The notes under the pieces are model-generated. The model made no database searches. It had not been told where the DNA came from and was given only the letters and a program-made list of their open reading frames with translations. This document shows, piece after piece, positions 16,174 through 52,851 of a stretch of DNA of 64,000 nucleotides. The stretch comes from Marinomonas hwangdonensis (GTDB lineage: Bacteria; Pseudomonadota; Gammaproteobacteria; Pseudomonadales; Marinomonadaceae). Numbering within the stretch: the first letter of the stretch is position 1; each line of letters starts with the position of its first letter. Both the position numbers and the translations under genes were made by a program. Location: NCBI RefSeq assembly GCF_003721245.1, contig NZ_RIZG01000010.1:1-64000 (forward strand), given 5' to 3'.

Positions 16174-16203
16174 AAACATCGATGTTTGAAGAACACTCTT
16201 CAA
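16174..16203. promoter_or_regulatory. Paired palindromes in the gfc/wzi divergent region
   Basis: AAACATCGATGTTT (16174-16187) is a perfect 14-bp palindrome, partly overlapping a second inverted repeat TTGAAGA / TCTTCAA (16186-16203). Both lie 19-48 bases before the gfcA-like start, in its leader or promoter. The 296-base divergent space should hold promoters for both directions; no clear -35/-10 pair was recognised for the rightward genes. Confidence 0.35.
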
Positions 16204-16451
16204 TACTGATTCTAAATTAAGAGCTCAATGAATGTAAGCGTGAAGGCTTGCTTTTTTGTGAATTTTTTGCTCAGTTTTGATGTCGGTTAAGGGCTTTTCT
16301 GACGAGGTAAATGGCAGTCGAAGTCTTTTTTCAGCTCTTATATAAGGCATAGGGAATAGGTGAAAAGAGCAAAAGAGACTTTATTTTTTGCCCTAATTCG
16401 TACACTATGTGCGGCATATTTAAGATGTACATAAAGGAATGTGAGTCATCA

Positions 16452-17780
16452 ATGCCTCTAATGAAACGAACCACGACCTCTCAAGCTTTTGTCGGTACCT
16501 CTTTTCCGTATCTTAAAACCGGCCTAGCGGCCGTTCTGATGTCGCCTATGGCGGGCATGGCTTCCCCGTGGCTAGAAGCCAGCGATCCTTTTTTGCGCTC
16601 CTCTTTAGTGCTGTTGTCAGATTCTGGGCAATTATCCGCACCCATTAATCAGTACCCCTTGCGTTGGTCGGCTTTCGCCGACGATTTGGTTTTTTTGGGT
16701 CGCAGTAACGATCACAGAGCCATTGCCAACCAAGAGTTGTCCCACTCGTTAAACAACGCCAAACTCAACCGTGGTAATCGCCGCTTAGGGTTGTTAGGCA
16801 GCTCAAGGGCCGCAACGCCCCACGGCTACGGTCAGTTTAACGACGACAAGAAAGGCCTTTATACCCATTACGAACAGCTTAATCACGATTTTTCCTACCG
16901 TATTTCAGCGCAATACCGAGAATACCAAGGTAATACAGACGTACGTTGGGAAGACAGCTACCTTGCTTACAACGCAGGGCCATGGTTGTGGTCGATTGGC
17001 GATCTTGACCGCTGGTGGGGGCCGGGTTGGCAGCATAATCTGACCTTGGGATCTTACGCCAAAGCGGCACCCGATGTGAGTGTCAGCTACCTAGGGCAGC
17101 ACTCAAGCCTGGGTATGTGGAGTATAGAAAGTCTTGTAGCGTCACCTAGTAACAACCAAGTAGACTACCACAGCGCCACCCGCTTTGTGGCCAAACCCTT
17201 TAAACGCGTTGAATATGGTTTGACGTATCAGATGTGGCTCGCGGCTCAAGACAGTGCGTCAAACGACGATCAAATCACCCTAGACGGTAAGTTGACCTTG
17301 CCAGCAATAGACGATTTTTACCACAGTGTGTACTTAGAAGCCGCTTCCACCGCAAAAAACACTGAGTTAGGGGCGTGGATGTTAGGTTGGACAGGGGCCT
17401 TCCCCGTAGGCGACAGCAGCGTGCGCTTGATACTTGAAACCCAACAAACCACAGCGGATCACAGCAAGACGCCATGGTCTGTTGGTGCCTATCCTTCTAT
17501 GACAGACGGCGTATCAAACACCAGCTACTTGTTAGAAAACAGTCAGTCTATTGCCGTACACTGGCAGCGCAGCAACGACCACAAGCTCGGCGCAAGTCAC
17601 CAGACATCGACTCAAAACCAAACAGACTACGACCTAACGCAATTAACCTATCGTTTCCCTGCATTAGCGGGCATGGTGCATTTTGGGGCCAGTTATCAAA
17701 GGTCCCACAATCAGCAACATCAAAATGCAACAAACAACAGCCAAACTGCGATATGGTCAGGTTACGAGTTCCGCTTCTGA
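16452..17780 (+). CDS. Capsule assembly Wzi family outer-membrane protein
   Basis: About 442 residues. The N-terminal part carries a hydrophobic export-like stretch ending near MAGMASPW, followed by the Wzi-type opening (DPFLRSSLVLLSDSG, then INQYPLRW). The rest has beta-barrel-like alternation. Wzi proteins are outer-membrane lectins that tether capsule to the cell surface. I chose the ATG at 16452; an in-frame ATG at 16407 adds 15 unlikely residues and another start at 16461 is possible. The ribosome binding site is weak (AAGGA, 13 bases off). It opens the rightward export genes, 103 bases before the SLBB protein gene. Confidence 0.8.
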   Translation: MPLMKRTTTSQAFVGTSFPYLKTGLAAVLMSPMAGMASPWLEASDPFLRSSLVLLSDSGQLSAPINQYPLRWSAFADDLVFLGRSNDHRAIANQELSHSLNNAKLNRGNRRLGLLGSSRAATPHGYGQFNDDKKGLYTHYEQLNHDFSYRISAQYREYQGNTDVRWEDSYLAYNAGPWLWSIGDLDRWWGPGWQHNLTLGSYAKAAPDVSVSYLGQHSSLGMWSIESLVASPSNNQVDYHSATRFVAKPFKRVEYGLTYQMWLAAQDSASNDDQITLDGKLTLPAIDDFYHSVYLEAASTAKNTELGAWMLGWTGAFPVGDSSVRLILETQQTTADHSKTPWSVGAYPSMTDGVSNTSYLLENSQSIAVHWQRSNDHKLGASHQTSTQNQTDYDLTQLTYRFPALAGMVHFGASYQRSHNQQHQNATNNSQTAIWSGYEFRF

Positions 17781-17883
17781 TAAAGGCGCGGGCATTTAGC
17801 AGAACAGTAAAACAGCAGAGCAGTAAAATAACAGAGCACTTGATACCTAACGGATTTCCTTTTGACAAACAAAGACCAACACG

Positions 17884-20481
17884 ATGCGACTAGATAAACG
17901 ATTGATAGCGACTTTCCTGATGATATTGACGAGTCATGCCATGGCATTTACCCCGTCAGCCGCGCAAATTAGCCAGTTTCAAAACTTGCCAAAAAGTCAG
18001 CAAGAAGCCCTTGCTCGCCAATATGGCGTGGATCTTGGCAGTATCAGCGCGGGCGCAGGTGCCGGTTCCGCTGCTGAAGCGCCAGCGCAAGTCATCGCCC
18101 CCGCTACCCCCGCCGCGACCAAGGTCGCACCGGCGAAAGTCAGCAACAACGGCTTGCCCCTGTTTGGTTACGATGTGCTTAGTGGGGAAAGTAAAGGCTT
18201 TACTGTCGTAGACGATTTGCCCGTCCCGGTGGACTATCAAATGGGCCCAGGGGATGTCATAAACGTCCAAATGTTTGGCAAAAACAACCAAAATATCTCG
18301 GTCAAAATCGACCGCGATGGCACTATTAGCCTTCCAGAGCTGGGGCCGTTGGCGGTTTCTGGTCAAACCTTTGCTCAGCTGCAACAGCAAATCACCCGAG
18401 TGATCAAGCAAAAAACCATAGGGGTGGATGTGTCTGTCACCATGGGCGCCATGCGCACCATGCAAGTCTTCATTGTGGGGGAAGTGGGTCAGCCAGGAGC
18501 GTATAATGTCAATGCCCTGACCACCATCACACAAGCCCTGATCTCCAGCGGTGGCATCAACACAAGCGGTAGCCTGCGTGATATACAGCTAAAGCGCAAG
18601 GGCCAAATGGTGGCTCGTTTTGATCTATATGACTTGCTGATTAAAGGCGACGCGTCTAAAGACGTGCGCTTGTCAGCGGGGGATACCTTGTTTATTCCTC
18701 TGCATCACAACCGTGTCAGCGTCAGTGGCCAGGTCACCCGAGCGGCTGTGTATGAATACCAAGATACCATGACCATCACAGAGCTGCTTGACCTTGCCGG
18801 TGGGGCACAGCCTCAGGCCTATCTTTCCCAAGTCAGTCTACGCCGTAGCAATCAGAACGGGGTGCAGCAATACACCCTAGATTTGTCGACCAAGGCGGGT
18901 CAGCAATTTCAGGTTGAAGGCGGTGATGAAATACGTCTTAACGCGGTGAGCAGCTCACTGAAAAATGCCATTGCCGTTCGTGGCGAAGTAGCACGCCAAG
19001 GGGCGTTGAAGTTCACCCCTGGTATGACCATACGGGATGCCATCGGCAGCATAGACGAAGGGTTAAAAGCCAGTGCTGATCTAAACTACGCCCTGTTAGT
19101 GCGTCAGATTAATCAGAAACAAGACATAGAAGTGCATCAGTTTAGTTTGCTAAATGCGCTTAACACGCCCACCTCGGCCGACAACCTAACACTGCAAGAA
19201 AAAGACCAAATCTTTGTGTTTGATAACGGACTAGAGCAAGGCTACTGGAATGCCTACAGCAACGCATCGGTGAGTGGTCGTAGCGGCGGTGCCGAAAAAG
19301 AACGCGAAGTGATCGACCCAGAAACCGGTGCCACTGTGGTGCGAAACGAAGTCACGGCATTAAACATTGACGACGCCGATACCGTCACCAGCGCCACAGA
19401 ACAGCGTAAAACCAGCCGTGAAGCCTTGCTCAGACCGATTGTCGAGCGTCTAAAAGAACAAGCCCGTTTTGGTGCCCCTGCACAGCTTATCGAAGTATCC
19501 GGTGCCGTGACTTTTCCAGGGGTGTACCCGTTAGCGGTCAATAGCACTCTAAAAACCTTACTCACCGCCGCAGGCGGATTGATGGAAAATGCCTATTTAG
19601 ACGAAGCGGAACTGTCACGTCGCGCGTTTGGTCAATCGGCGTCTTTGGCCGACCGTATCAATGTCTCGCTTCACAACCTAATGGCAGGGCACTCAAACGT
19701 CACCTTGCAAGCCATGGACCATCTGATCGTTAAAACCCAACCAGGTTGGCAAGAAGGCATGGTTGTTGAGCTGCAGGGCGAACTGGTTTTTCCAGGTCGC
19801 TACACCTTTCAGCGTGGTGAAACCCTAAAAGACCTCATTGAGCGCGCTGGGGGCTTTACTGAGTTTGCCTACCCAGAGGGGGCCGTACTCAGCCGTGATC
19901 GTTTAAAGCGCCAAGAAGCAGAGCGTTTAAAACAAATCAACAATCAGCTGAAGCAAGAGATCAGCAACATGGCGCTCCGTCGCCAAGGCTCAGCCGCGGC
20001 CAATGACCCAGCCCAAGCCATTGCGGTGATTAATCAGTTGGAAGATGTTCAGCCTATTGGACGTCTGGTAATAGACCTCAACGCCGCCATGGAAAACGAC
20101 CCACTGGCGAACATCATGTTAGAAAAAGGCGATAAGCTTTTTATTCCTGCTGTTAACCCTGTAGTCAGTATCGTGGGTGAAGTGCAGTTTGCGTCCCACC
20201 ACACCTTTAACCCTAGGCTAACCGTAGACGACTACATCACCGCCGCCGGTGGCACCAAACGCCAAGCCGACACAGGCCGTGTGTATGTGGTCAAAGCCAA
20301 TGGCTCGGTGGAACTGCCCAATAATTCCTTCTGGTTTAGTCGCAGCAGCGACCCACTGGCACAGGGAGACACCATTATAGTGCCAGTCGACACAGACTAC
20401 CTAGACGGTCTAAGCACGCTGACCACCGCCACCCAAATACTGTATCAAATTGGTGTTGCGTGGAGCGCCATCAAAGACTAA
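17884..20481 (+). CDS. Polysaccharide export protein with multiple SLBB domains (Wza/GfcE-like)
   Basis: An 865-residue envelope protein. A signal peptide ends near residue 21 (HAMA-F); no lipobox Cys is seen, unlike Wza. After an Ala/Pro-rich linker comes a Poly_export domain (about 115-190, starting QMGPGDVINVQMFG). Then come about six SLBB-type repeats, each with a V.G.V..PG.Y-like strand and an AGG turn, spread from about 195 to 810. It is roughly twice the length of E. coli Wza (about 380 residues), as in OtnA-like exporters. It probably forms the outer-membrane or periplasmic conduit served by the neighbouring Gfc, Wzi and Wzz proteins. Confidence 0.88.
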   Translation: MRLDKRLIATFLMILTSHAMAFTPSAAQISQFQNLPKSQQEALARQYGVDLGSISAGAGAGSAAEAPAQVIAPATPAATKVAPAKVSNNGLPLFGYDVLSGESKGFTVVDDLPVPVDYQMGPGDVINVQMFGKNNQNISVKIDRDGTISLPELGPLAVSGQTFAQLQQQITRVIKQKTIGVDVSVTMGAMRTMQVFIVGEVGQPGAYNVNALTTITQALISSGGINTSGSLRDIQLKRKGQMVARFDLYDLLIKGDASKDVRLSAGDTLFIPLHHNRVSVSGQVTRAAVYEYQDTMTITELLDLAGGAQPQAYLSQVSLRRSNQNGVQQYTLDLSTKAGQQFQVEGGDEIRLNAVSSSLKNAIAVRGEVARQGALKFTPGMTIRDAIGSIDEGLKASADLNYALLVRQINQKQDIEVHQFSLLNALNTPTSADNLTLQEKDQIFVFDNGLEQGYWNAYSNASVSGRSGGAEKEREVIDPETGATVVRNEVTALNIDDADTVTSATEQRKTSREALLRPIVERLKEQARFGAPAQLIEVSGAVTFPGVYPLAVNSTLKTLLTAAGGLMENAYLDEAELSRRAFGQSASLADRINVSLHNLMAGHSNVTLQAMDHLIVKTQPGWQEGMVVELQGELVFPGRYTFQRGETLKDLIERAGGFTEFAYPEGAVLSRDRLKRQEAERLKQINNQLKQEISNMALRRQGSAAANDPAQAIAVINQLEDVQPIGRLVIDLNAAMENDPLANIMLEKGDKLFIPAVNPVVSIVGEVQFASHHTFNPRLTVDDYITAAGGTKRQADTGRVYVVKANGSVELPNNSFWFSRSSDPLAQGDTIIVPVDTDYLDGLSTLTTATQILYQIGVAWSAIKD

Positions 20482-21515: not shown

Positions 21516-21567
21516 GTAGGTCAGACTTGTAGGTCAGATTAGCCGAGGTACGAGGCGTGATCTGACG
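21516..21567 (+). repeat. REP-like element, copy 2
   Basis: GTAGGTCAGACTT precedes a full unit GTAGGTCAGATTAGCC.GAGGTACGAGGCGTGATCTGACG. The outer arms GTCAGAT / ATCTGAC pair. It lies just after the first wzz, in the convergent gap with the beta-CASP gene. A weaker, degenerate copy may continue to about 21610. Confidence 0.85.
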
Positions 21568-23141: not shown

Positions 23142-24125
23142 TCAGGGGCGTATTGGTTGCCAAAGTGTGGCGGGGGTTGGGCAGTGGGCGATGGGGAAGT
23201 AGCCGATGTCGCTGCGGATGCGTTGGCTGACGCTGTGGTGCCAGTGGGGGGAGAGTTCGGGGTTGGGACGGTCGTTTTCTAAGACGCAGCAGTGTCGTGG
23301 GGCGAGGGTGAGGTCGCGCCAGAAGCTGAGGTTGCGTTCTTGGTAGTGTATTTTGCCTAGGTGTTTGGGCGCTATGGTGAGCAGTGGTTGCCAATGGGGC
23401 GGGTGATTTTTTGCTAGGCGCGTTGTGCGGTAACAGTGTTGTTGGGTTTGTTGTTCGATCCAGTCTATTATGAGGCGTGATACTAGATCTCCTATGCCGT
23501 CTTTGCGGTAGCCACCGCCAATATCTGAATGGGCTCCTGCTAGCCATATTTCTAATGCGCGCCCATCTTGGTTCATCAACGTGGGCCGAAAGACGAGGCG
23601 TTGTTCGTCTAACGCGACCAGGTGCAAAGCGCGGTGAACGCCGTCTGGTAGTGTGTGTCCATGTTCAAATACCACGTCGGTTTGTGGGCGTTGGTTGGTG
23701 TCTAAGTTTGGCCAGCCGATAGAAGCGACTGTGTCTATGACGGCTTCTATGATGATGGGGCGATCAATAAGCGGAGTGATGAGAGCGGCAAAGCGTCTTG
23801 CTAAGGCCGCGCCTCGGCTAAAGCCGATTAAGACTATGTGGCGCGTATAGCGGGTATAATGGTGTTTGAAGTCGTGTAAAGCGCGGTTTAAAATATTGGC
23901 GACGTGGCCGGATTCAATGGCAAACGCCGCGTTGATTTTTTGTTCCAGCCAATGACCGTAGGTACCGACGCCAGCGTAGTAAAAGCTGCGATGATTTGTC
24001 ACGCGACCACCCAATAGCATGTGGGATTTCAATACATTGGTGATGCTCGAAACGCTGTGTTCTGGTGCGTAGGCGTCATCTGGGCTATTGTCAGTGCCAT
24101 CGAAATGAAAAAATAATATCGACAT
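23142..24125 (-). CDS. DUF2235/Tle1-like alpha/beta hydrolase
   Basis: A 327-residue predicted serine hydrolase. It has the nucleophile motif GFSRGA (Ser103) and the typical DUF2235/Tle1 segments DTVASIG (Asp131) and GAHSDIGGGY (His199), so a complete Ser-Asp-His set is plausible. Tle1 proteins are phospholipases, some delivered by type VI secretion, but no vgrG, PAAR or immunity-like gene is adjacent and no signal peptide is seen. The start ATG at 24125 follows a perfect AAGGAGG; an in-frame upstream codon at 24185 is rejected. True substrate unknown. Confidence 0.75.
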   Translation of the reverse strand: MSILFFHFDGTDNSPDDAYAPEHSVSSITNVLKSHMLLGGRVTNHRSFYYAGVGTYGHWLEQKINAAFAIESGHVANILNRALHDFKHHYTRYTRHIVLIGFSRGAALARRFAALITPLIDRPIIIEAVIDTVASIGWPNLDTNQRPQTDVVFEHGHTLPDGVHRALHLVALDEQRLVFRPTLMNQDGRALEIWLAGAHSDIGGGYRKDGIGDLVSRLIIDWIEQQTQQHCYRTTRLAKNHPPHWQPLLTIAPKHLGKIHYQERNLSFWRDLTLAPRHCCVLENDRPNPELSPHWHHSVSQRIRSDIGYFPIAHCPTPATLWQPIRP

Positions 24126-24329
24126 TGTGTGTCCTCCTTGGTTGTCGTGACCCCATCTTCCTGATGATTGGGGATAGCATAACATGGTTTTTTGTCAGTG
24201 TGGTGTTTGTGGCTAATCTGATCTACATGGCAAGGTTTTCTTAAGAACCCCCCGAAGGTTTGTTTTGCGAAACGAAGCGGTTCAGGTAAACTGTTCCGCT
24301 GTAAAAATAGACACCACCCAGAGGAAGCA

Positions 24330-26267: not shown

Positions 26268-26306
26268 GTAGGTCAGGTTAGCCGAGGAACGAGGCGTGAT
26301 CTGACG
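26268..26306 (+). repeat. REP-like element, copy 4
   Basis: GTAGGTCAGGTTAGCC, GAGGAACGAGGCGTG, then ATCTGACG. Same orientation as copy 3, 43 bases on, and 37 bases before the wbpA start codon. Confidence 0.85.
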
Positions 26307-40431: not shown

Positions 40432-41672
40432 AGATCGTCTATTTGACTTGGGGCGAAACTCCACGAGCCTACGGTGTATTTGGTTCACAGGTGATAGGTC
40501 AATTCCTTGAAACGTCTAAGTTGTCACCAGAAGTAGAATTTCATTTTATTTCCGCTGTTCCTATTATTCATAGTGGTTTAATCCGAGAAAAGTGGCATTA
40601 CTTTAAAGAGTTAAAATCTGTGAAAAGTAAGCTTTCTCCGATTGCATTCCACTGGTTGCCTATTTGGACCTCTCAAAACTTTATCAATTCATCTAAATAT
40701 AGTTTTGTCTTGATGCATGGTTTGACTCACTTACATCTGAAAGCGAAGTTAAAAAAAATTCAACCAGAGATAGTACACTGTCGTTCTTACCATGCTGCAT
40801 GGGCTGCCTTAAATGTTAAAATAAAATATGGTTTTACATACAAAATTATTTTTGATGGACGAGGTTTGTGGCCGGAAGAAGTAGCTCTCAAAAAGGACTG
40901 GAGTGAACAGTCTATAGACTATCTTTTTTTGAAGTCAATTGAATCGCAGTTGCTTGATAAATGTGATTGTTCCGTTAGTGTTTCTGATACGATGCATGAA
41001 TATTATACCAATCTTGGCGCTCAAAATGACCATACGATTTATCTTTCCGCAGATACTCGGAAGTTAAAAGTTGAAATTAATGAGTTTGAAGTAAGTGATA
41101 CGATTCGTTTTTGTTATGTTGGTGCCTTATCCGAAGATACTTGGCATAAGCCTCAGCTATTAGTAGAGCTGTATCGTAAATTAAGATTGCTTTTTCCAAA
41201 AACACAATTAACAATAGTTACTACATCTAACTTTTTATTATTGAAACAAGCTTTTTCAGAGTTTCCAACTAAAGAGATTATTTTCACCTCAACAAAAACA
41301 CGAGAAGAATTAAAACAAGTCCTTAAAAAACAAGATTTTGGCTTAATGACTTATTTCTTGCCAGAAAATGATAAAGAAAAATTGTTAGGTAATATGGTTC
41401 TTGCTGTAAAAACAGCTGAGTATTTCGTTGCTGGTTTGCCGATGATTTGCAACGCATACTGTGGTGGTGCTTCAAGTATTATAAAGGAGAATGGTTTAGG
41501 AGTAATCTATTACCCAGAGAATATCGACGATCTAACTTTGGAAGAGTTTATTCCTTATTTGAAAGTAAGTGCTCGTGAGAAGTGTCAATCTTTTGCATCA
41601 GAAAATTTTGATTACGAGATAAATGCAGAGAACTATAAAGAGCTTTATCAAAGCTTAATGGTGTATAAATGA
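40428..41672 (+). CDS. Glycosyltransferase (GT4-like)
   Basis: A 414-residue GT-B-type glycosyltransferase. N-terminal half has the acceptor-domain start (IVYLTWGETPRAYGVFG) and FDGRGLWPEEV near 145. The C-terminal half has donor-domain signals (SFMT-like FGLMTY, then AEYFVAGLPMICN). It lies between wbpI and the polymerase candidate with ATGA overlaps on both sides. It may transfer the acetamidino-mannuronic acid, as WbpH or WbpJ do in Pseudomonas, but specificity cannot be read from sequence. Confidence 0.8.
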   Translation: MKIVYLTWGETPRAYGVFGSQVIGQFLETSKLSPEVEFHFISAVPIIHSGLIREKWHYFKELKSVKSKLSPIAFHWLPIWTSQNFINSSKYSFVLMHGLTHLHLKAKLKKIQPEIVHCRSYHAAWAALNVKIKYGFTYKIIFDGRGLWPEEVALKKDWSEQSIDYLFLKSIESQLLDKCDCSVSVSDTMHEYYTNLGAQNDHTIYLSADTRKLKVEINEFEVSDTIRFCYVGALSEDTWHKPQLLVELYRKLRLLFPKTQLTIVTTSNFLLLKQAFSEFPTKEIIFTSTKTREELKQVLKKQDFGLMTYFLPENDKEKLLGNMVLAVKTAEYFVAGLPMICNAYCGGASSIIKENGLGVIYYPENIDDLTLEEFIPYLKVSAREKCQSFASENFDYEINAENYKELYQSLMVYK

Positions 41673-42835
41673 CTAGTTTTCGTCTTTCTTACTTTGGTTT
41701 AATTGTTTTTTTTAGTTTTATTATTTTATTGTTAATCTCAAGGGTATTGTTTCCTTTTGCTGATGAGCCTGATTGGATTGCTCGTGCCCCTTTAGTGCTT
41801 TTTGGCGATCATTCGTTATGGTCTCCTTATTATATTTTTTCTAATTTTTTAAACCAATTGAACATTGAAAACTCTGTATGTCAGCCCGTTGCTGGTGCTT
41901 TGAGTTTTTGGGCAGAAATATCAAGCTCATGCACTGAAAGTTTAGAAGAAATTATAATAAGATTTTCAGTAACACTATTTGTGATTTTGCCAATTCTTTT
42001 TATTATTATTTTTAGAAATTTCTTTATTCTATTAATGAATTTAGTTAATTTAAGGCTAAGTAAAGAAGAGTGGAATTATCGTATAGACTCATTAGCTCTT
42101 ACAATTATTTTTCCTGGTATTCTTTACTATTTAGGTGTCCTTGCTGAAGAGCAGTTTTTTTTAGTTGTTTCGTTATATATATTTTTATTTTGGGGTTTTT
42201 GGCTTCCTATTTCTCTTTTATTGATGGTTTTATCTACTATTGATTTTGGTAATACTGTAGTGGTTTTGTTTTTTATATTATCTGTTATGTTTTTTTCAAA
42301 AATCCGTAATTATAATAGAAAATTATTCTTTTCTTTTTTTCTATTTTTTTTATTTTTAGCTTATTTTATTGGGTTTAGATTTCTTGAACTGTTTTCTCAA
42401 ATTTCTTTTCTAGGAGGTAGCTTTTCTTCAAAATCTGATGCTATCTATCAGGTGCTCAATGATAGTGATCTAGTAGAAAAGTATCCTGTGATCTTAAGGC
42501 CTATAATTACACTTATGAGCTTTATTTTTATGACTCCTTCGGGGGTTAAAGTGCCAGTTCTGTATGTAGCTATATTTATTTTAATTTTTACATTAACGCT
42601 TAAGGTATTTAGGGGTAAAAATAAATTGCTTGATGTTTACTGGTTTGTTCCTTTTTTTTCGACTATTTTTTTTGTCTTTTTGTTTCCAAACTATGCGAAC
42701 GCAAAGTATTATGTTTTTGTCATGCCTTTTTTAGTTTATGCATCTTTAAATTACTACTCTAGGAATGTTGTTTTTGTTTTTTTTGTAGCTTCGACCCTTC
42801 TCGTTTTTTTTCATCTTATACTTTATCGGTTTTGA
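41669..42835 (+). CDS. Multi-pass membrane protein, Wzy polymerase candidate
   Basis: A 388-residue protein with about ten hydrophobic segments and a longer outside loop near residues 235-280. There is no strong family motif, which is normal for Wzy polymerases. It sits beside wzx and the glycosyltransferases, and no other polymerase-like gene is in the cassette. Very AT-rich. It could also be a membrane glycosyltransferase. A fossil rmlD follows. Confidence 0.6.
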   Translation: MTSFRLSYFGLIVFFSFIILLLISRVLFPFADEPDWIARAPLVLFGDHSLWSPYYIFSNFLNQLNIENSVCQPVAGALSFWAEISSSCTESLEEIIIRFSVTLFVILPILFIIIFRNFFILLMNLVNLRLSKEEWNYRIDSLALTIIFPGILYYLGVLAEEQFFLVVSLYIFLFWGFWLPISLLLMVLSTIDFGNTVVVLFFILSVMFFSKIRNYNRKLFFSFFLFFLFLAYFIGFRFLELFSQISFLGGSFSSKSDAIYQVLNDSDLVEKYPVILRPIITLMSFIFMTPSGVKVPVLYVAIFILIFTLTLKVFRGKNKLLDVYWFVPFFSTIFFVFLFPNYANAKYYVFVMPFLVYASLNYYSRNVVFVFFVASTLLVFFHLILYRF

Positions 42836-42907
42836 CTTTAGATTTATTAGGCTTTTTTGGGATTTTACATTGAATATAAAAGTTTTTTTAGTTTTTTCTT
42901 TAAAGCT

Positions 42908-43129
42908 GGTGTCTTGACGTTTCATCATTATTCTGATGACATATCAACCAGTTGGCATTTTTTGCATCTGCTATTTATGTAAAGGCGGGGGGGAATGTGT
43001 GTTATTGTGAAACGACCACAACTGATGGTGATTAGTTCTGATCAGTATTCAACGACCGCGAAACATCCAGCGTATACGGTAATATCGAGGCAGGCGCTTG
43101 GTTTTTTAGGTGCTAGGCCTTCTAATTGA
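42908..43129 (+). pseudogene. Decayed C-terminal fragment of rmlD (dTDP-4-dehydrorhamnose reductase)
   Basis: Translated in one frame, this stretch keeps a row of RmlD C-terminal motifs: TFHHYSDDISTSWH, then a TAA stop, then KRPQLMVISSDQYSTTAKHP and LGFLGARPSN. The intact rfbD at 52.0 kb has TYHYCGDTPTSWHGF and KRPQLKAISSDQYPTPAKRP in the same order, with exactly 18 codons between SWH and RPQL in both. Inside that interval the reading has decayed. A weaker match (DL..ILH) may extend it back to about 42841 in another frame. It is not translatable as a whole. Confidence 0.8.
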
Positions 43130-43176
43130 CTATATGAACTCAATAAAACACTCAGTATTGCTGAAAGGTTAATAAA

Positions 43177-44061
43177 ATGGAAAAAAATAAATATCCAAAA
43201 GTGGCTGTACTGCTTGCAGCCTACAATGGGATGCAATGGATTGAAGAGCAAATAAATAGTATTTTAGCTCAAAAAAATGTTGATGTTACTATTTTCGTTA
43301 GCGTTGATTTTTCTACCGATGGTACGGAATTGTGGGTTGAAACTCTAGTAAAAAATACATGGAATGTTGTGTTTCTTACTTATGGTGAGCGCTTTGGTGG
43401 TGCTGGTGCTAATTTTTACCGTCTTATTCGAGATGTTGATTTTAAAGGATTTGACTACGTTGCTTTTTCGGATCAAGACGATATATGGCTAGATAAAAAG
43501 CTGGATAGAGCTTGTTCTCTAATATCCTCTAGCGTTTGTGATGCTTACTCTTCCGACGTTATTGCTTTTTGGTCAGACGGAAGGCAGCAGCTAATAAAAA
43601 AATCTTATCCTCAAAGAAAGTTCGATCATTTCTTTGAGGCGGCCGGTCCCGGTTGTACTTATGTTTTCAGTATTCGCTCAGCTTTGTCTTTTCAAATTTT
43701 TGTTAGAAAAACAGATAATTTATCTCAGCTTGTCAGTTTACATGACTGGCTTGCTTATGCTTTTTGTCGGCAAAATGGTTTCACTTGGTTTATTGATGAT
43801 CAGCCTTTGATGTTATACAGGCAGCATGAAAATAATCAAGTAGGCATTAATGATGGCATTAATGCCTACAAAAAAAGGATTAGTTTAATCAAACAGCGTT
43901 GGTACAGAAGTCAAGTTAAAACTATTTCTGAATTAGTTAACCCATGTTTTTCATTAAAATTAAATAGCTATTTTTTTAGAATTTTTAGCTGTTTGTTTTT
44001 TCGTCGACGTTTGAGAGATAGGCTTGCGCTCCTGTATATTTTTATATTCGGAATCTATTAA
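43177..44061 (+). CDS. Family 2 glycosyltransferase, rhamnosyltransferase-like
   Basis: A 294-residue GT-A fold enzyme. The N-terminal LLAAYNGMQWIEEQINSIL pattern and SDQDDIWL near residue 98 (metal-binding DxD-like) are typical of rhamnosyltransferases and related GT2 enzymes. The rml genes in the window make dTDP-rhamnose available, and an rmlD fossil lies just upstream. The stop overlaps the following SDR start as TAATG. Donor assignment is inferred. Confidence 0.83.
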   Translation: MEKNKYPKVAVLLAAYNGMQWIEEQINSILAQKNVDVTIFVSVDFSTDGTELWVETLVKNTWNVVFLTYGERFGGAGANFYRLIRDVDFKGFDYVAFSDQDDIWLDKKLDRACSLISSSVCDAYSSDVIAFWSDGRQQLIKKSYPQRKFDHFFEAAGPGCTYVFSIRSALSFQIFVRKTDNLSQLVSLHDWLAYAFCRQNGFTWFIDDQPLMLYRQHENNQVGINDGINAYKKRISLIKQRWYRSQVKTISELVNPCFSLKLNSYFFRIFSCLFFRRRLRDRLALLYIFIFGIY

Positions 44062-45740: not shown

Positions 45741-45779
45741 CGTCAGATCACGCCTCGTACCTCGGCTAATCTGACCTAC
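45741..45779 (-). repeat. REP-like element, copy 5 (inverted)
   Basis: CGTCAGATCACGCCTCGTAC then CTCGGCTAATCTGACCTAC: the exact reverse complement of the copy 2 unit. Its orientation is opposite to copies 1-4. Confidence 0.9.
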
Positions 45780-45801: not shown

Positions 45802-45841
45802 CGTCAGATCACGTCTTGTGTCTCGGCTAATCTGAATCTAC
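45802..45841 (-). repeat. REP-like element, copy 6 (inverted)
   Basis: CGTCAGATCACGTCTTGTG, TCTCGGCTAATCTGA then ATCTAC. A diverged copy in the same direction as copy 5, 45 bases before the dehydratase gene. Together they mark the right side of the cassette. The remaining ~145 bases from 45597 hold nothing I recognise. Confidence 0.8.
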
Positions 45842-49426: not shown

Positions 49427-50509
49427 ATGAAAATCTTGGTTACCGGTGGTGCCGGTTTTATTGGCAGTGCGGTTGTGCGTTATTTGCTGACTAGTACTCA
49501 GTATTCTGTTGTAAACTTGGATAAACTGACTTATGCAGGGAATTTAGAGTCTATTCCTGAGTCGTTGCAGAATGAGCGTTATGCTTTTGAGCCGGTGGAT
49601 ATTTGCGATTCGGTTGAATTGGATCGAGTGTTTCATGTACACCAGCCGGATGTAGTGATGCATTTAGCGGCGGAGAGTCATGTTGACCGTTCTATTGATG
49701 GCCCTGGTGATTTTATTCAGACCAATGTGGTGGGGACGTACACTTTATTGGAAGCGAGCCGTAAGTATTGGATGGGGCTGTCTGACGATAAAAAATCCGC
49801 GTTTCGCTTTCATCATATTTCCACTGACGAAGTGTATGGGGATTTACCGCATCCTGATGAGGTTGAGGGTGAGTTGCCCCTGTTTACGGAAACCACGCCT
49901 TATGCACCGAGTTCGCCTTATTCTGCCAGTAAAGCCAGTTCAGACCATTTGGTTCGCGCTTGGTTACGCACTTATGGCTTACCGACGGTTGTCACTAATT
50001 GCTCGAATAACTATGGTCCCTATCACTTTCCTGAAAAGCTTATCCCTCATGTGATTTTGAATGCTTTGTCGGGTAAAGCTTTGCCGGTTTATGGCGATGG
50101 TTCGCAAATTCGTGATTGGTTGTATGTGGAAGACCATGCGCGGGCTTTGGTAAAAGTGGCGACAGAAGGCCAAGTCGGTGAGACTTATAACATTGGCGGC
50201 CACAATGAAAAGCGCAATATTGAGGTAGTAAAGACGATTTGTGCTCTGTTGGAAGAGCTTGTTCCAACCAAACCACAAGGCGTCAATGCCTATGAAGATT
50301 TGATCACGTATGTGAAAGACCGTCCGGGTCATGATGTGCGTTATGCTATTGATGCCAGTAAAATTGCCCATGAACTTGGGTGGAAGCCCGAAGAAACCTT
50401 TGAGACAGGTATGCGCAAAACGGTACAATGGTATTTAGACAATCCAGATTGGTGGCAACGCGTGTTAAGCGGTGACTATCAGTTACATCGTATCGGTGAG
50501 AACGAATAA
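49427..50509 (+). CDS. rfbB: dTDP-glucose 4,6-dehydratase
   Basis: A 360-residue extended SDR, second enzyme of dTDP-L-rhamnose synthesis. NAD motif GGAGFIG is at 8-14; catalytic T133-D134-E135 in [10 protein letters not shown]165 and K169 in YSASK. Length matches RmlB. It heads an rmlB-A-C-D row with short gaps (10-40 bases). The AT-rich 100 bases upstream probably hold its promoter, though no clear boxes stood out. Confidence 0.97.
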
Positions 50510-50519
50510 GGACTGGGGT

Positions 50520-51401
50520 ATGACAAAACGTAAAGGCATTATTTTAGCGGGCGGCAGCGGTACTCGCTTGCATCCGTTAACCTTGGCTACATCAAAACAA
50601 CTGATGCCCATTTATGATAAACCAATGATCTATTACCCGTTGTCTGTGCTTATGTTGGCCGGTATTCGTGAAGTCTTAATTATTACCACGCCCGAAGATC
50701 AAGCGAGTTTTCAGCATTTGCTAGGCGATGGTCGTCAGTTTGGCGTTGAGTTGACTTATGCGGTACAGCCCTCACCCGATGGTTTGGCGCAAGCGTTTAT
50801 TATTGGTGAAGATTTCATTGGTGATGACAATGTCGCCTTGGTATTGGGTGATAATATTTTCTTTGGTCAGCATTTTTCTGAAAAATTAAAGCAAGCCTCG
50901 TCTCTTGAGAAAGGTGCGACGGTATTTGGTTATCATGTGTCTGATCCTGAACGCTTTGGTGTGGTCGCCTTCGATGAGGCGGGCAAAGCCGTCAGCATTG
51001 AAGAAAAACCAGAGAAGCCTAAGTCGCCCTATGCGGTAACAGGGTTGTATTTTTACGACAATGATGTGGTTGAGATTGCTAAAAAGATACAACCTTCTGT
51101 ACGCGGTGAGTTAGAAATTACCGATGTGAACTTGGCGTATCTGCATCGTGGTGATTTGCATGTGTCTTTACTGGGGCGAGGCTTTGCTTGGCTAGACACG
51201 GGAACGCATGATTCTTTGTTGGAAGCGGGTCAGTTTGTGCAAACGGTTGAGCATCGCCAAGGTCTGAAAGTGGCGTGCTTAGAAGAAATTGCTTACCGTC
51301 AGAAGTGGATCACCAAAGCCCAGCTGGTGGCTTCTGGCCATGCGCTGAAAAAAACCGGTTATGGTCAGTATTTGCTAAAAGTCGCTGATGGTTATCAGTA
51401 A
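50520..51401 (+). CDS. rfbA: Glucose-1-phosphate thymidylyltransferase
   Basis: A 293-residue nucleotidyltransferase, first step to dTDP-rhamnose. The nucleotide-binding GGSGTRLHP is at 11-19, with [11 protein letters not shown] and EEKP further on. I use the ATG at 50520 with AAGGA before it; the frame opens at 50472 inside rfbB. It follows rfbB by 10 bases. Confidence 0.97.
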
Positions 51402-51441
51402 AAGGCCATCAATAAAAGGCTATCTATAAAAGGTAAGTGTG

Positions 51442-51978
51442 ATGAATGTTATCAAAACCACGATCGATGGTGCGTTGATTATTGAGCCTAAGGTGTTTGG
51501 CGATGAGCGCGGCTTTTTTTTGGAAACGTTTCAGGCAGAACGTTATAAAGCACTGGCCGGAATTGATTTACGCTTTGTGCAAGATAATCACTCACGTTCT
51601 GGTAAAAACGTGCTGCGCGGTTTGCATTTTCAAAAGACCAAACCACAGGGTAAGTTAGTGCGTGTGGTGCGTGGTGAAGTGTTTGATGTGGCGGTCGACA
51701 TCCGCAGAGGTTCACCTACTTATGGACAGTGGGCTGGGGTAATTTTATCAGAAGAGAACAAGCGTCAGTTTTGGGTGCCACCGGGTTTGGCCCATGGTTT
51801 TGTGGTGTTGTCGGACGTGGCGGATTTCGAATATAAATGCACAGATTATTATGACCCGAGCGATGAAGGCTGTCTGATGTGGAATGATCCTACTGTCGAT
51901 ATAGACTGGCCAGAAGGCATTGAACCGATTTTATCGGCCAAAGACAAAGAGGGCCTAACATTGGGTGAATTATTTTAG
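51442..51978 (+). CDS. rfbC: dTDP-4-dehydrorhamnose 3,5-epimerase
   Basis: A 178-residue cupin epimerase. The active-site His lies in RGLHFQ near 60, and family segments QDNHSRS and VPPGLAHGFVVLSD are complete. I start at the ATG at 51442 with AAGG 8 bases upstream; a GTG one codon earlier is possible. It stops directly before rfbD with no gap. Confidence 0.97.
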   Translation: MNVIKTTIDGALIIEPKVFGDERGFFLETFQAERYKALAGIDLRFVQDNHSRSGKNVLRGLHFQKTKPQGKLVRVVRGEVFDVAVDIRRGSPTYGQWAGVILSEENKRQFWVPPGLAHGFVVLSDVADFEYKCTDYYDPSDEGCLMWNDPTVDIDWPEGIEPILSAKDKEGLTLGELF

Positions 51979-52851
51979 ATGCGTATTTTACTCACCGGTA
52001 AAAATGGCCAGCTTGGCCGTTGTTTCCAAGATGTATTAACAGGAACGGATCATGCGTTATTTGCTTATGGTTCGGCTGAATTAAATATCGCTGACGCTCA
52101 GCAGGTTGCTGAGGTTGTCCAACAGGTAAAACCGGATATCATTGTTAACGCTGCAGCTTATACCACGGTTGACAAGGCAGAAACTGATTCAGGCAATGCT
52201 TACCTGGTGAATGCCACAGGGCCTGAACTGCTTGCCAAGCAAGCGGCTGATTTAGACATTCCTTTTGTGCATGTTTCCACCGATTACGTTTTTGATGGTG
52301 AGGCGGTCGAACCCTATTTGCCGACCGATGAGACCAATCCACAAGGGGTTTATGGTGCCTCTAAATTAGCGGGTGAGCGTGCCGTAAAAGCCGCCTGCGA
52401 GAAATACATTATTTTGCGGACGGCTTGGGTATTTAGCGAATACGGTAATAACTTTGTGAAGACCATGGTGCGTTTGGCGAGAGAGCGAGATGCATTAAGC
52501 GTAGTGGCCGACCAATACGGTTGCCCTACCTACGCGGGTGATTTGGCTAAGGCGATTTTGCACATTTGTGAACAACATGAGCATGACAAGCCCTTAGTTT
52601 GGGGGACGTATCATTACTGTGGTGACACGCCGACTAGCTGGCATGGTTTTGCTCGCGCAATTTTTGCCAAAGCCGAGGTGTTGGGTGTTATTGATAAGCG
52701 TCCGCAACTGAAGGCGATTAGCTCGGACCAGTACCCTACGCCTGCGAAGCGACCTGAATATTCCGTTATGAAAGATGAGAATTTATCTTTACTTGGAATA
52801 ACACCTTCAGATTGGTTTGCTGGCTTGCGTTCTGTTTTAAATAGAATATAG
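51979..52851 (+). CDS. rfbD: dTDP-4-dehydrorhamnose reductase
   Basis: A 290-residue SDR, last step of dTDP-L-rhamnose synthesis. GKNGQLG is at 7-13, STDYVFDG near 102, and YGASKLAGE around 128-136 with the catalytic Tyr and Lys. It begins on the base after the rfbC stop. A broken copy of its C-terminal third is at 42.9-43.1 kb. Confidence 0.97.
   Translation: MRILLTGKNGQLGRCFQDVLTGTDHALFAYGSAELNIADAQQVAEVVQQVKPDIIVNAAAYTTVDKAETDSGNAYLVNATGPELLAKQAADLDIPFVHVSTDYVFDGEAVEPYLPTDETNPQGVYGASKLAGERAVKAACEKYIILRTAWVFSEYGNNFVKTMVRLARERDALSVVADQYGCPTYAGDLAKAILHICEQHEHDKPLVWGTYHYCGDTPTSWHGFARAIFAKAEVLGVIDKRPQLKAISSDQYPTPAKRPEYSVMKDENLSLLGITPSDWFAGLRSVLNRI

Follow-up and report, generated by a model that had tools for sequence, protein, structure and literature searches.

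Sequence comparison confirmed that positions 42921-43176 (+) of the window, i.e. of the whole 64,000-nucleotide stretch of DNA that was analysed, carry what reads as a dead 3′ remnant of rmlD, a putative pseudogene. The fragment lies in the gap 42836-43176, between a wzy-like gene (41669-42835) to the left and a GT2 glycosyltransferase gene (43177-44061) to the right. It is very probably the non-functional remnant of an rmlBACD-glycosyltransferase unit that was stranded by replacement of the genes upstream of it. The relevant features of the window are as follows.

41669-42835 (+): Wzy-like membrane protein, polymerase candidate; homologue only in genome G034 among 49 congeners
42836-42920 (+): AT-rich stretch between the stop of the wzy-like gene and the point where rmlD homology becomes detectable (the blastn block begins at 42921)
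42921-43176 (+): rmlD 3′ remnant (putative pseudogene), about codons 211-294 of RmlD, from tblastn, TIGR01214 and blastn to genome G030
about 42959-43003 (+): small indels causing a frameshift that is then restored, with no net change; TAA at 42980-42982 inside
43127-43129 (+): TGA replacing a conserved Trp (PSDW to PSN-stop), from alignment to intact Marinomonas RmlDs
43177-44061 (+): GT2-family glycosyltransferase, Pfam Glycos_transf_2; follows rmlD in relatives
49427-52851 (+): intact rmlB-rmlA-rmlC-rmlD operon downstream of algA, from Pfam and NCBIfam

Identity, extent and lesions of the fragment

The original prediction, that C-terminal motifs of RmlD occur in the gap in the order and spacing of the intact rfbD at 52 kb, was borne out. 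The motifs sit in frame +2 of the window, and translation of the gap reached a score of 150 against the RmlD encoded at 51979-52851, a value attained by 0/2000 shuffled sequences (mean 26, SD 4, maximum 51); the remaining five frames scored 21-29. The translated search that had been proposed as a check recovered RmlD, as did a profile search. With the 52-kb RmlD as query, tblastn found 42% identity over 78 amino acids at 42923-43156 (E 1e-13), and the NCBIfam profile TIGR01214 matched the fragment with E 1.2e-4 at positions 205-278 of 285. The match to Pfam PF04321 was weak (E 0.28), yet in the right place (209-264 of 287). Neither curated threshold was reached, the fragment scoring 21.2 bits against a cut-off of 224 for TIGR01214 and 10.7 against 27 for PF04321, and the fragment is not a full-length SDR with an N-terminal NAD(P)-binding Rossmann domain. 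Three properties of an rmlD pseudogene were found, namely significant homology in order and register (by the pairwise as well as by the profile search), disabling lesions (5′ truncation, frame-shifting indels and a nonsense codon) and constraint that is relaxed in comparison with the coding neighbours, as seen in the DNA identity to G030 and in a long branch.

Clear rmlD homology begins at about 42921, corresponding to about residue 211 of RmlD, so that some 210 N-terminal codons are missing and the last 84 or so remain in damaged form. To the right, homology continues beyond the TGA at 43127-43129 up to the start of the glycosyltransferase gene at 43177. The span first proposed, 42841-43129, was thus right as to rmlD homology, while its limits had to be moved to about 42921 and 43176. 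Homology leftward to 42841 was unconvincing: the score was raised with one of four references (7 of 500 shuffles reached it; 87-392 with the others).

A stop codon had been noted between the motifs, namely the TAA at 42980-42982. This codon lies in the frameshifted stretch, where the shifted frame reads FASAIYVKAGGNV, resembling FARAIFAKAE of RmlD. The TGA at 43127-43129 stands at a Trp that is kept in 18/18 aligned intact Marinomonas RmlDs. Judged from this alignment, the TGA is the true in-frame nonsense codon of the presumed pseudogene and the TAA is not. Motif similarity is still visible and a short open frame is present, which would suit a segment retained as a short peptide (44-codon frame from 42995), a regulatory leader or an RNA. 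Such a function is extremely improbable, given the small indels, the nonsense codon and a divergence faster than that of the neighbouring genes. The gap 42836-43176 showed no terminator, no same-strand promoter-like site, no meaningful match in Rfam and no notable repeats.

Ancestry of the fragment

Fragment and glycosyltransferase gene were found to share one unbroken DNA match with the nearest relative, G030. By blastn, window positions 42921-44022 correspond to G030 positions 19337-20439 over 1109 nt with 76.9% identity. Inside this match the fragment showed 65.6% and the glycosyltransferase gene 81.5% DNA identity (Fisher p 3e-7), as expected where a dead sequence adjoins a functional gene. 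The glycosyltransferase is 77% identical to its G030 homologue, which there lies directly 3′ of an intact rmlD. When 49 other Marinomonas genomes were searched for homologues of the glycosyltransferase (E below 1e-20), six had one, and in five of these (G030, G004, G021, G045 and G008, the last matching M. atlantica) the glycosyltransferase gene directly follows an intact rmlBACD operon, rmlD being its neighbour. The named M. atlantica record L030 likewise has rmlBACD directly 5′ of this gene. Together with the unbroken DNA match, the intact operons upstream of the glycosyltransferase in relatives indicate that the fragment is the tail that an rmlBACD-glycosyltransferase unit left behind. They also support the suggestion made with the original prediction, i.e. 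an earlier rml operon at this site or import from a locus with rml genes at its end.

The intact rml operon of the window (49442-52770) matched the same G030 operon (16185-19500) with 81.1% identity in blastn. According to these matches, the single rmlBACD-glycosyltransferase unit of G030 corresponds to two places in the window, namely the operon that follows algA and, at 43 kb, the rmlD tail with the glycosyltransferase gene. The last 80 nt or so of the intact rmlD (52770-52851, after KRPEYSVM) had no match in G030, the remaining operon being 81% identical; this might reflect rapid divergence, or a further junction where rmlD ends.

The 52-kb rmlD is on the same strand of the same genome, shares the KRPQL..ISSDQY motifs and has the 42% amino acid identity given above, as would be expected if its 3′ end had been copied to 42.9 kb and had then decayed. 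At sites where the rmlDs of G030 and of the 52-kb operon differ, however, the fragment agreed with G030 28 times and with the 52-kb copy 13 times (p 0.03), and in its last third the ratio was 23:6 (p 0.002). A maximum-likelihood tree (255 sites) placed the fragment, with a long branch (0.76), within the rmlDs of Marinomonas; the 52-kb copy was not its sister, and support for the placement was low (61). Site pattern and tree placement thus indicate that the fragment did not arise by recent local duplication. Its match to G030 extends to the C-terminal LNK-L tail and to the glycosyltransferase gene that follows, and the rmlD-glycosyltransferase neighbourhood is common to most relatives. Partial local duplication is accordingly very unlikely, and the 52-kb rmlD was rejected as the source on the grounds of site pattern and neighbourhood. 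Whether the fragment was a local duplicate or foreign had been the question put to the tree; it appeared to be neither, but an rmlD of the type of this genus, closer to that of G030 than to the 52-kb copy. As far as could be seen from the sequences, there was no sign of an origin outside the genus.

The sixth congener with the glycosyltransferase, M. sargassi (G034), was an exception. Its homologue is the nearest among named species (69% identical; M. atlantica 56%), its rml genes lie after algA, and no rmlD is found upstream of the glycosyltransferase gene; the corresponding gap contained no trace of rmlD. This arrangement indicates that other histories of the locus exist. M. sargassi also holds the sole, distant homologue of the Wzy-like protein in the genus (30% identity, record L029, 2792-3940); this protein (41669-42835) matched neither Pfam nor NCBIfam. 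Outside the genus, rmlC-rmlD-glycosyltransferase was found in one genome of another genus (G260; record L113). In the Pseudomonas records L032-L034 and in L112, the glycosyltransferase gene comes after rml genes of which rmlA is the last. Outside Marinomonas it is commonly followed by gne and wbpL, the same as in the window. In one further Marinomonas genome (G013, contig 38; L107 8050-11024, minus strand), an entire second rmlBACD operon was broken into several frames, and a different contig carries rml genes in which the rmlD frame is open. Unless the sequence is poor, duplication and loss of rml operons have thus occurred in other members of the genus as well.

Possible origin of the remnant and other features of the locus

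In the ancestor of the window DNA, rmlBACD would have been followed directly by the glycosyltransferase gene that now starts at 43177. Other polysaccharide genes, the last of them the wzy-like gene at 41669, would have been set upstream of the rmlD 3′ end by a non-homologous join, which falls between 42836 and 42921 and enters rmlD after some 210 codons; rmlBAC and the 5′ part of rmlD would have been lost with it. Freed from selection, what was left of rmlD could then have decayed through point changes, indels and the nonsense codon. The intact operon at 49.4-52.8 kb, downstream of algA, would have maintained synthesis of dTDP-rhamnose and made loss of the upstream rml genes tolerable. The exchange junction probably lies within 42836-42920, so that one junction of the locus is placed to about 85 bases. 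How the exchange of the upstream genes took place is our inference, as are its completion in a single step and the arrival of the second operon ahead of the loss of the first.

A variant of this explanation is that fragment and glycosyltransferase gene were imported jointly from a Marinomonas locus of the G030 type, the rml operon never having been at this site in the lineage. Gene content on both sides is unlike that of G030, and the order glycosyltransferase, gne, wbpL seen in non-Marinomonas genomes marks the locus as a mosaic. G030, however, has its rmlBACD-glycosyltransferase unit at the same chromosomal locus, with algA and an fkpA-like gene near; loss in place needs fewer events for this reason and is favoured, joint import being the less probable course, though one of some weight. 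The rmlD 3′ end beside the glycosyltransferase gene might be conceived as a site of repeated breakage and joining in Marinomonas. Left-hand polysaccharide cassettes would be swapped there before a fixed end containing the glycosyltransferase, and rml operons would be lost and later regained at other places in the locus. Such a general role is speculative and rather unlikely.

Further observations concern the remainder of the polysaccharide locus. A dispersed 34-nt hairpin-like repeat, CGTCAGATCACG.CT.GT..CTCGGCTAATCTGA, has five copies genome-wide, four of them in the window:

21534-21567 (-): 34-nt repeat copy
26273-26306 (-): 34-nt repeat copy
45741-45774 (+): 34-nt repeat copy
45802-45835 (+): 34-nt repeat copy

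The four copies flank polysaccharide genes on both sides in opposite orientations, and similar copies are present at either end of the locus in G030. An ORF at 23142-24185 (-), beside wzz, encodes a T6SS Tle1-like phospholipase domain (PF09994); its G030 homologue lies, with the dispersed repeat, inside the locus between a sugar-transferase gene and galE. The non-coding or broken segment 25660-26174, between a second wzz-like gene and a nucleotide-sugar dehydrogenase gene, is 78-81% identical to the left end of the G030 locus and is possibly another remnant.

Comparison with known polysaccharide loci

The fragment documents a different gene order in the past of the window DNA and is, on these comparisons, a real yet ordinary scar of gene-cassette swapping in what appears as a Marinomonas surface-polysaccharide locus. 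Remnants in such clusters are well known and no new mechanism follows from this one; it extends to a marine genus the pattern, already known, in which rml genes are joints of polysaccharide cassette exchange. No paper on remnants of this kind in Marinomonas was found in a search with limited cover of subscription journals. A close likeness is to the rmlBACD-GT2 unit of the five Marinomonas relatives, with which the window shares the glycosyltransferase and the position of rmlD; in the relatives the rml genes are intact, whereas in the window only the damaged end of rmlD is left.

Among Salmonella O-antigen clusters, those of groups B1 and D1 carry wzy remnants between wbaV and wbaU (PMC3715488). 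As in the present case, a truncated and degraded polysaccharide gene lies there between intact genes of a mosaic locus, its function having moved elsewhere; in Marinomonas it is rmlD that persists as a remnant, and the operon that replaces it belongs to the same locus. Recombination junctions inside rml genes have also been described in S. enterica O-antigen clusters (PMC3715488). Common to both genera is that rml genes adjoin the variable region and that exchanges break inside them. In the Salmonella exchanges, however, the rml genes stay working, whereas the break seen here has left a dead 3′ tail.
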